A stretch of 64,000 nt of DNA, taken from positions 1 through 64,000 of the forward strand of contig QOQW01000009.1 in NCBI GenBank assembly GCA_003327425.1, read 5' to 3'. The DNA comes from Candidatus Ozemibacter sibiricus. GTDB taxonomy: Bacteria > Muiribacteriota > Ozemobacteria > Ozemobacterales > Ozemobacteraceae. The notes beneath the pieces are model-generated. The model was not told where the DNA came from and made no database searches. It saw only the letters and a program-made list of their open reading frames with translations. A program made the position numbers and the translations under genes. The first letter of the stretch is position 1. The number at the start of each line of letters is the position of its first letter. Shown here one piece after another: positions 59,861 to 64,000 of this stretch.

Positions 59861-59933
59861 GGGGCTGTAGCTCAGCTGGGAGAGCGCGACATTCGCATTG
59901 TCGAGGCCGTCGGTTCGATCCCGATCAGCTCCA
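59861..59933 (+). tRNA. tRNA-Ala (anticodon CGC)
   Basis: A full cloverleaf can be drawn. The acceptor GGGGCTG pairs with CAGCTCC (one G-U). The D arm is GCTC/GAGC, the anticodon stem CGACA/TGTCG with loop TTCGCAT (anticodon CGC, reads GCG), and the T arm GTCGG/CCGAT with loop TTCGATC. The discriminator is A; CCA is not encoded. The DNA just beyond its terminator is a mobile-element and defence region, so this gene is a likely island junction. Confidence 0.95.
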
Positions 59934-59944
59934 CTTTTTCGGAG

Positions 59945-59975
59945 ACCCGCCTGGTGCGGGTTTTCGTTCTTTTAG
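59945..59975 (+). terminator. Terminator of tRNA-Ala
   Basis: ACCCGC-CTGGT-GCGGGT (59945-59961) followed by TTTCGTTCTTTT. Confidence 0.8.
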
Positions 59976-60056
59976 GCCTTCTCGCTAGGCATCAGATGAC
60001 GTAGGCCACGTGGTCCATTTGCCTCCAGCATCTCAGTCCGATTATCCTGACGCCAG

Positions 60057-60176
60057 GAGCCTGTTGCATGAATCCGTTTTTCGGACTTCCGGCACAAAGC
60101 GCTCCTGATCAGGAGCGTGTTTGCTGGTGGACCGTACAGAAAAAATGGCCCTTTTGGGCATTCATGCAACAGCCTC
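60057..60176. mobile_element. 120-bp MITE-like element with 17-bp terminal inverted repeats
   Basis: The left end GAGCCTGTTGCATGAAT (60057-60073) and right end (60160-60176, the reverse complement of GAGGCTGTTGCATGAAT) match at 16 of 17 bases. The left repeat is identical to the left end of the IS that starts 27 bp further on (60204-60220). It codes for nothing convincing and is probably a non-autonomous derivative mobilised by that IS family. Confidence 0.65.
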
Positions 60177-60233
60177 TTGAGTTTTCGCATATCGGCCTCC
60201 TGGGAGCCTGTTGCATGAATATTGATTTTTTGG

Positions 60234-60262
60234 TTGTACTTTTTGATAATTCATGGTATAAT
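60234..60262 (+). promoter_or_regulatory. Transposase promoter
   Basis: TTGTAC (60234-60239), a 17-nt spacer and a consensus TATAAT (60257-60262), just inside the left end of the IS. Confidence 0.65.
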
Positions 60263-60289
60263 CGGACATCTTCTTGTGAGGCTGGTTAC

Positions 60290-61660
60290 ATGGCTCCCAA
60301 CATCAGATTCGCCAACCGCGATCAAAACTTCTCGCTTCCCCCCGATGTCCGTGAATCGTTGCCTGAAGGGCACTATGCTTGGTTCATCATCGATGCCATC
60401 GATAGCATGAACCTGAAAGTTTTCTATCGGAAGGCCCGAGCCGATGGCAGGGGTGGTGCTTGGTATGAGCCCAAGATGGTGGCCACCCTTCTGGTCTATG
60501 CCTATTCGTTGGGAGTTCGGTCCAGCCGGAAGATCGAGCAGATGTGCGAAGTCGACGTTGCCTTCCGAGTCATTTGCGGGAACCTTCGCCCCGACCACTC
60601 TTCCATCGCCCGATTCCGACAATGTCACGAGAAGGATTTCAAAGACCTTTTCGCGCGAGTCCTCGAGCTTTGCCGAGAAGCTGGCCTGACCAAGGCAGGA
60701 ACCATCGCTCTCGATGGGACGAAGATGGCGGGCAATGCGTCCTTGGCTGCCAATCGTACGGAGGAAGCGATTCGCCAAGAGATCGACCAGATCGTGGCTG
60801 AGGCCCAGGCTGTGGATGCCAAAGAAGACGAGGAATTCGGGAAGCGCCGGGGCGATGAATTGCCGTCGAGCCTTCAGAGCCGGAAGTCACGGCAACAGCG
60901 GTTGGCTGAATGCCTTCGCCAGATTGAGGCACGGAAAGCGGCGGAAGAGGCGAAACGGGAAGAGATGCTGCGAAGGCGGAAGGAGCAAGAGGCGGCTGGT
61001 CGCTCCCCTCGAGGGCGACCTCCTAAGGAGGAGGCGAAGGCTCCAGAGCCGAAAGCCAATGTGACGGATCCGGAGAGCCGGATCATGAAGAACGGCAAAG
61101 GATATGTCCAGGGCTACAACGCTCAGGCGGTGGCCAATGCGCACCAGATCATTGTGGCAGCCGAAGTCACCCAGGATCAGAACGATTATCACCAGCTTCA
61201 TCCGATGATGGAAAAGGCCGTGAGCAACTTGGAAGAAGCGGGCGAGACGGTGATGCCGAGATCAGCGTTGGCCGATGCGGGATATGCGACCGAAGAAGCC
61301 TTGTCCAAGCCACTGCCAGCAGGGATGGAAGCCTATGTATCTGTGCGGCGGGAAGGTGTGACGCTGGGGAAGAGCGAGCCGGCTCCTCGTGGACGAATTC
61401 CACAGAACAGTACGGCCACTGAACGAATGGGCCGGAAACTGAGGACGAAGCAGGGAAGAGCGAAGTACAAGCTGCGGAGTTCGCTGATTGAACCTGTATT
61501 TGGACAAATCAAAGCGGGTTCGATGGCCTTTACTAGGTTCAGTCGAAGGGGCGTCTCTGCTTGTGATAGTGAGTGGAAGCTGGTTTGTGCGGTATTCAAC
61601 CTGAGGAAACTTTGGAAACACAAGGTTTCCTCTGGGAAAGGAGGGCAAATGATCCAGTGA
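60290..61660 (+). CDS. IS1182-family transposase
   Basis: 456 residues from ATG at 60290; the frame is open back into the adjacent 120-bp element but that part follows no family pattern. The N-terminal domain (NFSLPPDVRESLPEGHYAWF, YHPKMV-like YEPKMVATLLVYAYSLG) and RPDHSSIARFR are typical of DUF772/IS1182 transposases. IALDGTKMAGNAS supplies the first catalytic Asp, ALADAGYATEEAL the second, and SLIEPVFGQIK the Glu of the DDE triad. A Lys/Glu-rich coiled-coil insertion sits between. It appears intact and could be active. Confidence 0.9.
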   Translation: MAPNIRFANRDQNFSLPPDVRESLPEGHYAWFIIDAIDSMNLKVFYRKARADGRGGAWYEPKMVATLLVYAYSLGVRSSRKIEQMCEVDVAFRVICGNLRPDHSSIARFRQCHEKDFKDLFARVLELCREAGLTKAGTIALDGTKMAGNASLAANRTEEAIRQEIDQIVAEAQAVDAKEDEEFGKRRGDELPSSLQSRKSRQQRLAECLRQIEARKAAEEAKREEMLRRRKEQEAAGRSPRGRPPKEEAKAPEPKANVTDPESRIMKNGKGYVQGYNAQAVANAHQIIVAAEVTQDQNDYHQLHPMMEKAVSNLEEAGETVMPRSALADAGYATEEALSKPLPAGMEAYVSVRREGVTLGKSEPAPRGRIPQNSTATERMGRKLRTKQGRAKYKLRSSLIEPVFGQIKAGSMAFTRFSRRGVSACDSEWKLVCAVFNLRKLWKHKVSSGKGGQMIQ

Positions 61661-61762
61661 GGGTGGTGGGGGGACCCCCGTTTTGGGGGCCACCTTGTGG
61701 ATGAAGGAAGGGAACGATCGAGCCTTTGCCCCCCCCCCCAGGGCAAGTTTGTGCAACAGGTT

Positions 61763-62692
61763 CATTATGCAGGTAAAGCCCCTTCCTTGTATTTAGCCAT
61801 TCAAAGCATGCAACGAGTTTTAGTAAAAGCCTTAACTAGTAAGCATTTTTGTTTGACTTTTCTTCCAGGGAGTATGGTTTATGACCAGACTCTGATTAAC
61901 TTTGTGGCAACCGGTTTCGCTTTTTTTTCATCTTTGTCATGTCCTATCCATGAGCTATGGGGAAATTTTTTCGGAGCCACCCTAGAAGATCGGCCTCGTT
62001 ACAATATTGTTGACTGCTTCGAGACCTTCCCCTTCCCGCCCGGGGTGCTCGAGACCGCGCGGGGCGATGAGGCGGCCCAGGCCGTGGCCGCCACCTTGCC
62101 CGAACCCGTTCGCGCCTCGCTTGACCGGCTCGAAAAAGCCGGGCGCGCCTACTACGAGTTTCGCGCTTCCCTGATGGTGAAGAACAATGAGGGCCTGACC
62201 AAGACCTACAACCGGTTCCACGACCCCGGCCACGACGGCACCGGCATCAACGGCCGTGCCCCCGCCGACGTCGTCGCCGACATCAAGAAGCTCCGCGCCC
62301 TGCACGCCGAGATGGACCGCGCCGTCCTCGACGCCTACGGCTGGGGCGACATTCCCACCGCCTGCGAGTTCCTGCTCGACTACGAAGAAGACGAAGACGA
62401 CGATGACGAGGGCGCCTTCCGCCGCCGCCAGAAACCCTGGCGCTACCGCTGGCCCGACGAGGTCCGCGACGAAGTCCTCGCCCGCCTCCTGAAACTCAAT
62501 GCCGACCGCGCCGCTGAAGAGCGCAGAAAGGGCCTGACCGCCGGCCCCAAACGACCGCCCGCATCGTCAGATGACGACTCCCCGCCCGCCGACCTCGACC
62601 CCGCCCCCAAACGCGGTCGCAAGAAGAAGTCTTCAGCTTCTCACGCCACCCTGCCGGGGTTGTCACCTGCGAACGAGGACTCCGAACCGTGA
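61763..62692 (+). pseudogene. C-terminal remnant of a DNA adenine methyltransferase (DrmMI-like, class 1 DISARM)
   Basis: About 310 codons are open from the IS right end to 62692, without any catalytic methylase motif. The sequence fits the C-terminal target-recognition and tail region of large Eco57I/PglX/DrmMI-like methylases: LEDRPRYNIVDCFETFPFPP, then GLTKTYNRFHDPGHDG and LRALHAEMDRAVLDAYGWGD. The N-terminal SAM-binding half is missing, and 60 kb of unrelated DNA lies left of the IS. Bases 61763-62010 are clearly AT-richer than the rest. The stop overlaps the next gene (GTGA), so the 3' operon structure is kept. In class 1 DISARM the adenine methylase gene lies just before drmA, as here. 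Confidence 0.65.
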
Positions 62693-63282
62693 GCAGTCTT
62701 GCACTACCCACACCCCACCTGGTGATCCTGGCCGGCCCGAACGGCGCCGGAAAGACAACCTGCGCGTCACGGTTGCTTCCCCCCGGCGTGCCCTTCGTCA
62801 ATGCCGATGAGATCGCCAAGACTCTGCCCGGGTTCGAAGGCGTCGCTCAGGACCTGCGAGCCGGCCGGATCCTTCTCGAAAAGGTTTCGCACTTCGAGCA
62901 ACATCGCCAGAGCTTTGCCATCGAGACCAATCTGGCCAACCGCGCCCTGCTGAAACGGATCGAACGACTGCAAGCGACCGGATACTCGGTGACCATGATC
63001 TTCCTGTGGCTACGGTCGGTCGATCTGGCCATCGACCGCGTCATGGAGCGGGTTCGGCGCGGCGGGCATTCCGTTCCGGCCGAAGTCATTCGCCGGCGGT
63101 ATCGGGTCGGTTTGACCAACTTCCTGAAGTGGTATCGGGTTCGAGTCGATTCATGGTTCATTTTCGACAACTCCCTGGGAGAGATACGCCTGGTTGCTTT
63201 ACAAGAGAAGCCTGGAGCGGAGCAGATATTTGAAAAGGACCTTTGGCATAAGATCAGGAAAGGGGTTGCCTTGGATGAGTAA
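62689..63282 (+). CDS. Zeta-toxin-like P-loop kinase
   Basis: 197 residues, GTG start overlapping the methylase stop (GTGA). LVILAGPNGAGKTTCASRLL is the Walker A, followed by FVNADEIAKTLPG, SFAIETNLANRALLKRIERL, and IFLWLRSVDLAIDRVMERVRRGGHSVP, the lid with substrate-binding Arg/His residues. This is the zeta-toxin/UNAG-kinase-like family. Zeta toxins phosphorylate UDP-N-acetylglucosamine; chromosomal relatives of this short type often pair with a tiny downstream protein. It lies inside a DISARM operon, so it may be a cargo toxin-antitoxin pair or an accessory defence gene. Confidence 0.75.
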   Translation: MSSLALPTPHLVILAGPNGAGKTTCASRLLPPGVPFVNADEIAKTLPGFEGVAQDLRAGRILLEKVSHFEQHRQSFAIETNLANRALLKRIERLQATGYSVTMIFLWLRSVDLAIDRVMERVRRGGHSVPAEVIRRRYRVGLTNFLKWYRVRVDSWFIFDNSLGEIRLVALQEKPGAEQIFEKDLWHKIRKGVALDE

Positions 63283-63490
63283 CATCCGAAAAGAACCAGT
63301 CCCATCCCCCCGTGCGAGAGACCTCGAACGAAAGATTCAAGAAGCCGTCCGGGAAGCCCTTCTCGACCACCAGCGCGCCGGAAACCCCGTCGCCATCTGG
63401 CGGGACGGCAAGGTGGTCATCGTCCCCCCCAGCAAAATTCTCGAGCTTCTTGCTCGAGGTCGAAAGACGCCGCCCTCGCGGGGTGAATGA
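63275..63490 (+). CDS. Small partner of the zeta-toxin-like kinase
   Basis: 71 residues; the ATG overlaps the kinase stop by 8 bp. A basic N-terminus, a helix (ERKIQEAVREALLDHQRAG) and a short beta part (NPVAIWRDGKVVIVPPSKIL) ending in a charged tail. Small proteins with this I-W-R-D-G-K-V-V pattern commonly follow such kinases. It is a candidate antitoxin, but that is inferred from position. It is unlike the classical epsilon antitoxin. About 135 bp separate it from the next gene, with no other ORF I trust. Confidence 0.6.
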   Translation: MSNIRKEPVPSPRARDLERKIQEAVREALLDHQRAGNPVAIWRDGKVVIVPPSKILELLARGRKTPPSRGE

Positions 63491-63625
63491 CTCATGGGCA
63501 GGGCTGGTGGTCGTGATTCCCACGCCAGCGAAGACCCTGTCATCTGATCATTGCCCGGCCTGGTCGACAGGGGCTTGGGCCGAGAAACGGCGCCCGAAGG
63601 CCCGCCCAAGAAAGAAGGCTGACTG

Positions 63626-64000
63626 ATGGCCAAACAATCCAGAGAACGAACACCGCCAACCAAGGACCAATCTGCCGAGATGCCCATGGCCGGATGCTCG
63701 ACGACCAGCGCCCAGGTTCGACAGGGGTTGGTCGAGGCGCTGCGGCTTGACCTCGTAGGTCCCGACAACGATCACCCCTGCGCCCGGGAACTCCTGCCCG
63801 AAGCGCCGAATCGGTGGTATCTCACCGGCTATCTGGTGCCGACGAACGCGCCGTTGGCTCAACGCTTCGATGAGACCTCCACCGAAGAGATCGATGCCGC
63901 CGGCGACGCGCAAGGAATCGACGATGCCGACGCCCCCGAGCAGAAGGCCGCCAGCCAGAAGAGCTTCCTGCCGTCATCGCTGGGGCTGAGCGTCATCGTT
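63626..64000 (+). CDS. drmA: DrmA-like DISARM protein, N-terminal 125 codons (runs off the window)
   Basis: Start ATG at 63626 with AAGAAGG upstream; the frame is open to the window end. After a variable start, VRQGLVEALRLDLVGPDNDH, APNRWYLTGYLVPTNAP, an acidic stretch (EEIDAAGDAQGIDDAD) and QKSFLPSSLGLSVIV match the N-terminus of DISARM helicase-type DrmA proteins. DrmA with DrmB forms the DNA-remodelling core that blocks incoming phage DNA. Only about a tenth of the protein is visible, so helicase motifs and integrity cannot be judged. Confidence 0.7.
   Translation, partial: MAKQSRERTPPTKDQSAEMPMAGCSTTSAQVRQGLVEALRLDLVGPDNDHPCARELLPEAPNRWYLTGYLVPTNAPLAQRFDETSTEEIDAAGDAQGIDDADAPEQKAASQKSFLPSSLGLSVIV

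Follow-up and report, generated by a model that had tools for sequence, protein, structure and literature searches.

A relic of class 1 DISARM with an intact zeta-type kinase pair between drmMI and drmA in Candidatus Ozemibacter sibiricus

An analysis of the region 3' of a tRNA-Ala gene in Candidatus Ozemibacter sibiricus indicated, with a probability of about 0.9, that it holds a recently inactivated class 1 DISARM system with an accessory pair of toxin type at the drmMI-drmA junction, which would be a variable slot for effectors. The window, the whole stretch of 64,000 nucleotides that was analysed, corresponds to bases 1-64000 of contig C50 (184,973 bases), and coordinates above 64,000 refer to C50 on the same scale. 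The source genome is a draft assembly of 5.68 Mb in 58 contigs with a completeness of 97.9%.

Fragments of a DISARM operon at a variable tRNA-Ala site

Fragments of DISARM genes were found on one strand in the order drmMI-drmA-drmB-drmC (Table 1), in agreement with the DISARM identity and the class 1 gene order proposed in an earlier note on this DNA. The locus shared homology to DrmMI, DrmA, DrmB and DrmC and the gene order with class 1 DISARM (drmD-drmMI-drmA-drmB-drmC), but drmD and the catalytic half of the methylase were gone, drmA and drmB were internally deleted, drmC was frameshifted, and a kinase pair was located between drmMI and drmA. Since the gene order was kept but the core genes were present only as fragments, the locus was filed as a DISARM remnant and not as a system.

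Table 1. Features from the tRNA-Ala gene to the right-hand end of the window and across it
Feature	Position	Strand	Basis and remarks
tRNA-Ala (CGC)	59861..59934	+	ARAGORN; left edge of the variable region
MITE-like element	60054..60179	none	Repeat search; 20-nt inverted ends that match the end sequence of the neighbouring IS
IS1182-family element	60203..61770 (ends approximate)	+	NF033551 and end repeats; adjoins the truncated 5' side of drmMI
drmMI 3' end (TRD and C-terminal region), catalytic half missing	61781..62692	+	PADLOC DrmMI profile
zeta/PezT-type kinase, intact, 197 aa, in the drmMI-drmA slot	62689..63282	+	Pfam Zeta_toxin; AF2 model
Small partner, 71 aa, putative antitoxin or partner	63275..63490	+	Translation; kept downstream of kinase homologues
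drmA N-terminus	63626..64000, on to C50:64467, then deletion junction	+	NF038325; tblastn with the intact DrmA of L099

Residues 29-283 of the methylase ORF matched only positions 756-985 of 1015 of the DrmMI profile PDLC02640 (4.9e-57, PADLOC), consistent with the previous description of a methylase cut at the IS and reduced to its C-terminal part. The absence of drmD and of the catalytic half to the left was likewise confirmed, with no drmD upstream of drmMI at the locus. The search of the genome for both, which the earlier note had suggested, revealed neither a second DrmMI nor the missing catalytic half in the 97.9%-complete genome, and an intact drmMI gene, the outcome named as contrary to the proposal, was present nowhere in the assembly. 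The best-scoring DrmD-like match in the genome (C13), which ranked above some weaker helicase matches, was rejected as drmD because it was HmaA beside HmaB, which belong to another system. Genes for an HmaB-like methylase and an HmaA-like helicase at this contig end (G000 C13:1-5253, L118:1-5253) formed a separate Hma-type defence locus. The start of the drmMI piece (61770-62015) had a GC content of 40%, against 68% downstream of it. Foreign DNA was rejected as an explanation for this AT-rich start, since it matched the corresponding region of other DrmMI proteins with 30-45% identity. The same segment weakly resembled the target-recognition domain of MmeI and may be a swapped recognition domain.

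The ORF at 63626 matched NF038325 (DrmA) at 1.2e-18 over profile positions 1-209 of 1165, so that it proved DrmA-like, as had been claimed, and not a member of a non-DISARM family. The profile scores of the transposase, the drmMI piece, the kinase and the drmA start were all well outside the range that chance would produce. When the sequence was extended past 64,000 as proposed, DrmA, DrmB and DrmC were all present, each as fragments. The pieces of drmA were placed by tblastn with the intact DrmA of L099 (1141 aa), the nearest DrmA found, which was 41-66% identical depending on the piece. The gene had an intact start codon and N-terminal part and was in frame for L099 residues 15-260, to about position 64467. 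Residues 261-516 were missing, residues 517-616 followed in another frame with a stop at about 64758, and everything after codon ~616 was lost. Two motifs of L099, Walker A (GGGKT, 496) and DELH (734), fell within the intervals deleted here, and no DrmA was found elsewhere in the genome. The remainder of drmB consisted of the last 62 codons only (64787-64972; positions 557-604 of 606 of PDLC02583). The drmC gene started at 64975 with homology at 8.9e-57 and was split by one frameshift after codon ~86: profile positions 86-254 matched in the frame next to that of positions 5-86. This frameshift could be a sequencing error; the deletions in drmA and drmB cannot be base-calling errors.

The tRNA-Ala(CGC) gene, the MITE-like element and the IS1182 element were all identified in the order given in the earlier note (by ARAGORN, repeat search and NF033551, respectively). 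The transposase ORF (60068-61660) scored 287 bits against NF033551, above the cut-off of 270, and the end repeats of the element were located at 60203-60220 and 61752-61763. The assembly contained one full copy of IS1182, and elsewhere only MITE-like and partial relatives; those of the MITE-like element were found on C26 (90%), C35 (83%) and C6 (74%). The IS may not have caused the left deletion, which removed drmD together with the 5' portion of drmMI.

A comparison of the locus in relatives, also recommended beforehand, identified a variable site with flanks shared with G013. The tRNA-Ala gene and its left flank were kept in the same-genus genomes G013 and G012, and on the right the match to G013 resumed at C50:67262 with 86-90% identity. 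Between the conserved flanks, G013 carried about 2.1 kb of other DNA, compared with 7.3 kb in the window genome, and G012 carried yet another content 3' of tRNA-Ala. These differing contents indicate that the tRNA-Ala site is variable and that the DISARM relic is part of an insert. A direct repeat of the tRNA-Ala 3' end was sought as an attachment site and was not found. The right-hand end of the insert, beyond the DISARM relic, encoded a SEC-C motif protein and a PRiA4_ORF3 protein (C50:65934-67131; L002:6934-8131).

The kinase pair and its relatives

The kinase and its partner were the only complete parts of the relic. The kinase matched Pfam Zeta_toxin at 9.6e-9, its AlphaFold (AF2) model had a pLDDT of 89.6, and the closest solved structures to this model were AvrRxo1, PezT and zeta (Foldseek matches 2p5t, 1gvn and 3q8x). 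The P-loop and further residues were invariant in 20 homologues. The kinase fold and P-loop are shared with epsilon/zeta and PezAT, but the window kinase was shorter than those of these systems, at 197 aa, and its putative partner was encoded downstream and had no match in Pfam. A search for the partner protein in plasmids also gave no match. In 28 of 83 loci, the kinase was followed directly by a partner homologue, and the partner has a conserved central motif. The end of drmMI was joined to the start of the kinase by a 4-bp GTGA overlap, and the kinase and partner genes overlapped by 8 bp; the coordinates thus agreed with the arrangement previously described, a kinase with a small partner inside the operon.

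The nearest homologues of the pair were 58-63% identical, and the pair was widespread as a stand-alone pair. It was also present in stand-alone form, outside DISARM, in the same bacterial family (L014, L015), which indicates that the module is mobile and not specific to DISARM. Kinase homologues were found directly 3' of hsdS (L092, L074) and of mod-type methylases (L064, L075), and some of those behind modification or specificity genes had 4-bp overlaps. Because several other homologues adjoined housekeeping genes, the link to modification genes is recurrent but not exclusive. A search for DISARM homology up to 9 kb away from 80 kinase homologues yielded one clear DrmMI-kinase case, L038, in which the kinase was directly 3' of a DrmMI-like gene that stands beside a DpdE-like helicase.

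The L038 operon (L038:1599-12568, Thermodesulfovibrionales) encoded the DpdE-like helicase, a PIN-type pair, the DrmMI-like methylase, the zeta kinase with its partner, and a HEC-03B-like ATPase. DrmA was not found in it, and it may combine Dpd and DISARM parts in a hybrid not described before. On Synechocystis pSYSG, the gene order was hsdS, nucleotidyltransferase, zeta kinase, small gene, DarT-like gene (DUF4433) and macro domain, and the description of the island (PMC4963859) lists these genes simply as TA-related. The pSYSG island shares cargo families with the DISARM slots, but it is a type I RM locus and not DISARM.

Cargo at the drmMI-drmA junction

A search of 392 Planctomycetota genomes with the DrmMI profile gave 31 strong matches, whose operons were then read. 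Of 24 operons with both drmMI and drmA visible, 14 had the two genes more than 1.6 kb apart; in the other 10, the gap was below 250 bp. None of 20 drmA-drmB junctions contained cargo, and a long insert was present in 1 of 19 drmB-drmC junctions (L168). With finer phylogeny ignored, Fisher tests of drmMI-drmA against drmA-drmB and against drmB-drmC gave 3e-5 and 3e-4, respectively; when operons with the same type of cargo were merged, the counts became 11 of 21 versus 0 of 17 (Fisher 3e-4, again regardless of finer phylogeny). No gap above 0.6 kb was found in 17 drmD-drmMI junctions, a count that is partly censored, as the stretches start about 1.5 kb upstream of drmMI. In Pseudomonadota, one of the three operons with both genes visible (L182) had a 2.4-kb insert between drmMI and drmA, with HTH-type and PIN-like ORFs as judged by eye. 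The position of the kinase pair in the operon is probably not random.

The cargo of the Planctomycetota operons comprised DarT/DarG, AbiEii, TIR, GmrSD, nucleases and AAA effectors. DarT with a macro-domain gene and an M78 peptidase was found in L154, a macro-domain gene in L155, AbiEii in L156, and a CAP12/Pycsar-type TIR gene with a SIR2-like gene in L157. Full GmrSD was carried by L158 and a GmrSD_N/NsnA-like gene by L165, and the nuclease-type cargo included a beta-CASP nuclease (L159) and an endonuclease/exonuclease/phosphatase (L161). The remaining cargo consisted of an LmuB-like ATPase (L162; similar genes in L184 and L185), YhcG (L163) and an AAA_21 gene (L169), and the gap in L164 was also long. 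The zeta pair itself was absent from the drmMI-drmA cargo read in the 24 Planctomycetota operons. The placement of the kinase pair was not special to the relic: the junction that it occupies held accessory modules of several kinds in intact DISARM operons. Among the open-licence papers found, which do not include the founding paper (doi 10.1038/s41564-017-0051-0), none described a drmMI-drmA slot in DISARM.

Two single operons are recorded here for their inserts. In L184 (L184:5198-10648), four cargo genes were seen by eye in a row between drmMI and drmA, namely an LmuB-like ATPase, a GmrSD_N-like gene, an AAA gene and one unknown. The insert in L168 (L168:10691-13797), the only long drmB-drmC insert in the sample, was 3.1 kb in length and contained a 931-aa ORF.

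Inactivation of the system and the proposed role of the kinase pair

The original operon would have been drmD-drmMI-(zeta kinase and partner)-drmA-drmB-drmC, within the 7.3-kb insert 3' of tRNA-Ala. Of this operon, drmD and the start of drmMI are lost, with IS1182 standing at the cut; two internal deletions have taken the motor motifs of drmA and nearly all of drmB, and a frameshift splits drmC. The kinase pair, translationally coupled behind drmMI, would have been an accessory kill-or-arrest module of the whole operon. The kinase would phosphorylate a small-molecule or nucleotide substrate and would be restrained by its partner, and in the whole operon it would add a kill-or-arrest layer or guard the modification gene. 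The present survival of the pair may reflect either addiction or the recent date of the wreck; an intact kinase pair is also expected by chance in a young wreck.

The DISARM core is considered dead because drmA and drmB are deleted, drmMI is cut, drmD is missing, and no other DrmMI or DrmA exists in the genome; a methylation-free DISARM therefore fails. Among the functional options given in the earlier note, the extension into drmA, drmB and drmC supported a dead core and, unless the assembly is wrong, refuted both rescue by another methylase and a methylation-free variant held with a toxin pair. A core that still works, whether free of methylation or shielded by a different methylase and maintained by the kinase pair, is very improbable. 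The genome does encode a further adenine methylase (HmaB-like, C13), and drmA begins normally, but the product would lack both Walker A and DELH, almost nothing of DrmB is encoded, DrmC is out of frame, and neither DrmMI nor DrmA has a second copy. An assembly artefact is also improbable. Under that reading, DISARM would be intact in the organism, and the contig would be a chimera or would have collapsed at the IS and inside drmA-drmB. IS elements are classic misassembly points, and a draft genome of 58 contigs leaves room for such errors. With one full copy, however, the IS is not a repeat that could join wrong contigs; the missing halves of DrmMI and DrmA occurred nowhere else in the assembly, the deletions were located away from the IS, and the flanks on both sides matched G013.

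A serious if somewhat doubtful possibility is that the kinase pair, as a free-standing toxin-antitoxin module, landed in the operon by chance and has no tie to DISARM function. Same-family relatives carry the pair outside DISARM, and most kinase homologues are found away from DISARM, several of them beside housekeeping genes. The coupled overlaps of 4 bp and 8 bp argue against such a landing, as do the recurrence of kinase homologues directly behind modification or specificity genes of several system types (DrmMI in L038, Mod in L064 and L075, hsdS in L074 and L092, and pSYSG) and the selective filling of the slot with other defence modules.

The relic itself is ordinary. Of moderate interest is the slot pattern, which extends known DISARM biology in a way that can be tested. 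We tentatively suggest that the drmMI-drmA junction of class 1 DISARM may be a slot dedicated to effectors, with a rapid exchange of its content. Its modules (the zeta kinase pair, DarT-DarG, AbiE, TIR, GmrSD and nucleases) would act as guard or second-line toxins with a tie to the modification gene, as in other RM-type systems, in which hsdS or mod is followed by genes of the same families. For BREX, auxiliary or backup effectors embedded in the loci have already been described (PMC12839542), as has type IV restriction next to BREX (PMC8565348). The resemblance to the DISARM slot is that a defence operon built on a methylase has second effectors within it or next to it, but the DISARM slot is one specific junction, drmMI-drmA. 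If the cargo does stand guard over the methylase or serve as a backup to the helicase, DISARM would be layered, like BREX with its backup effectors, and the coupling would escape defence catalogues in which such operons are divided into unrelated parts.
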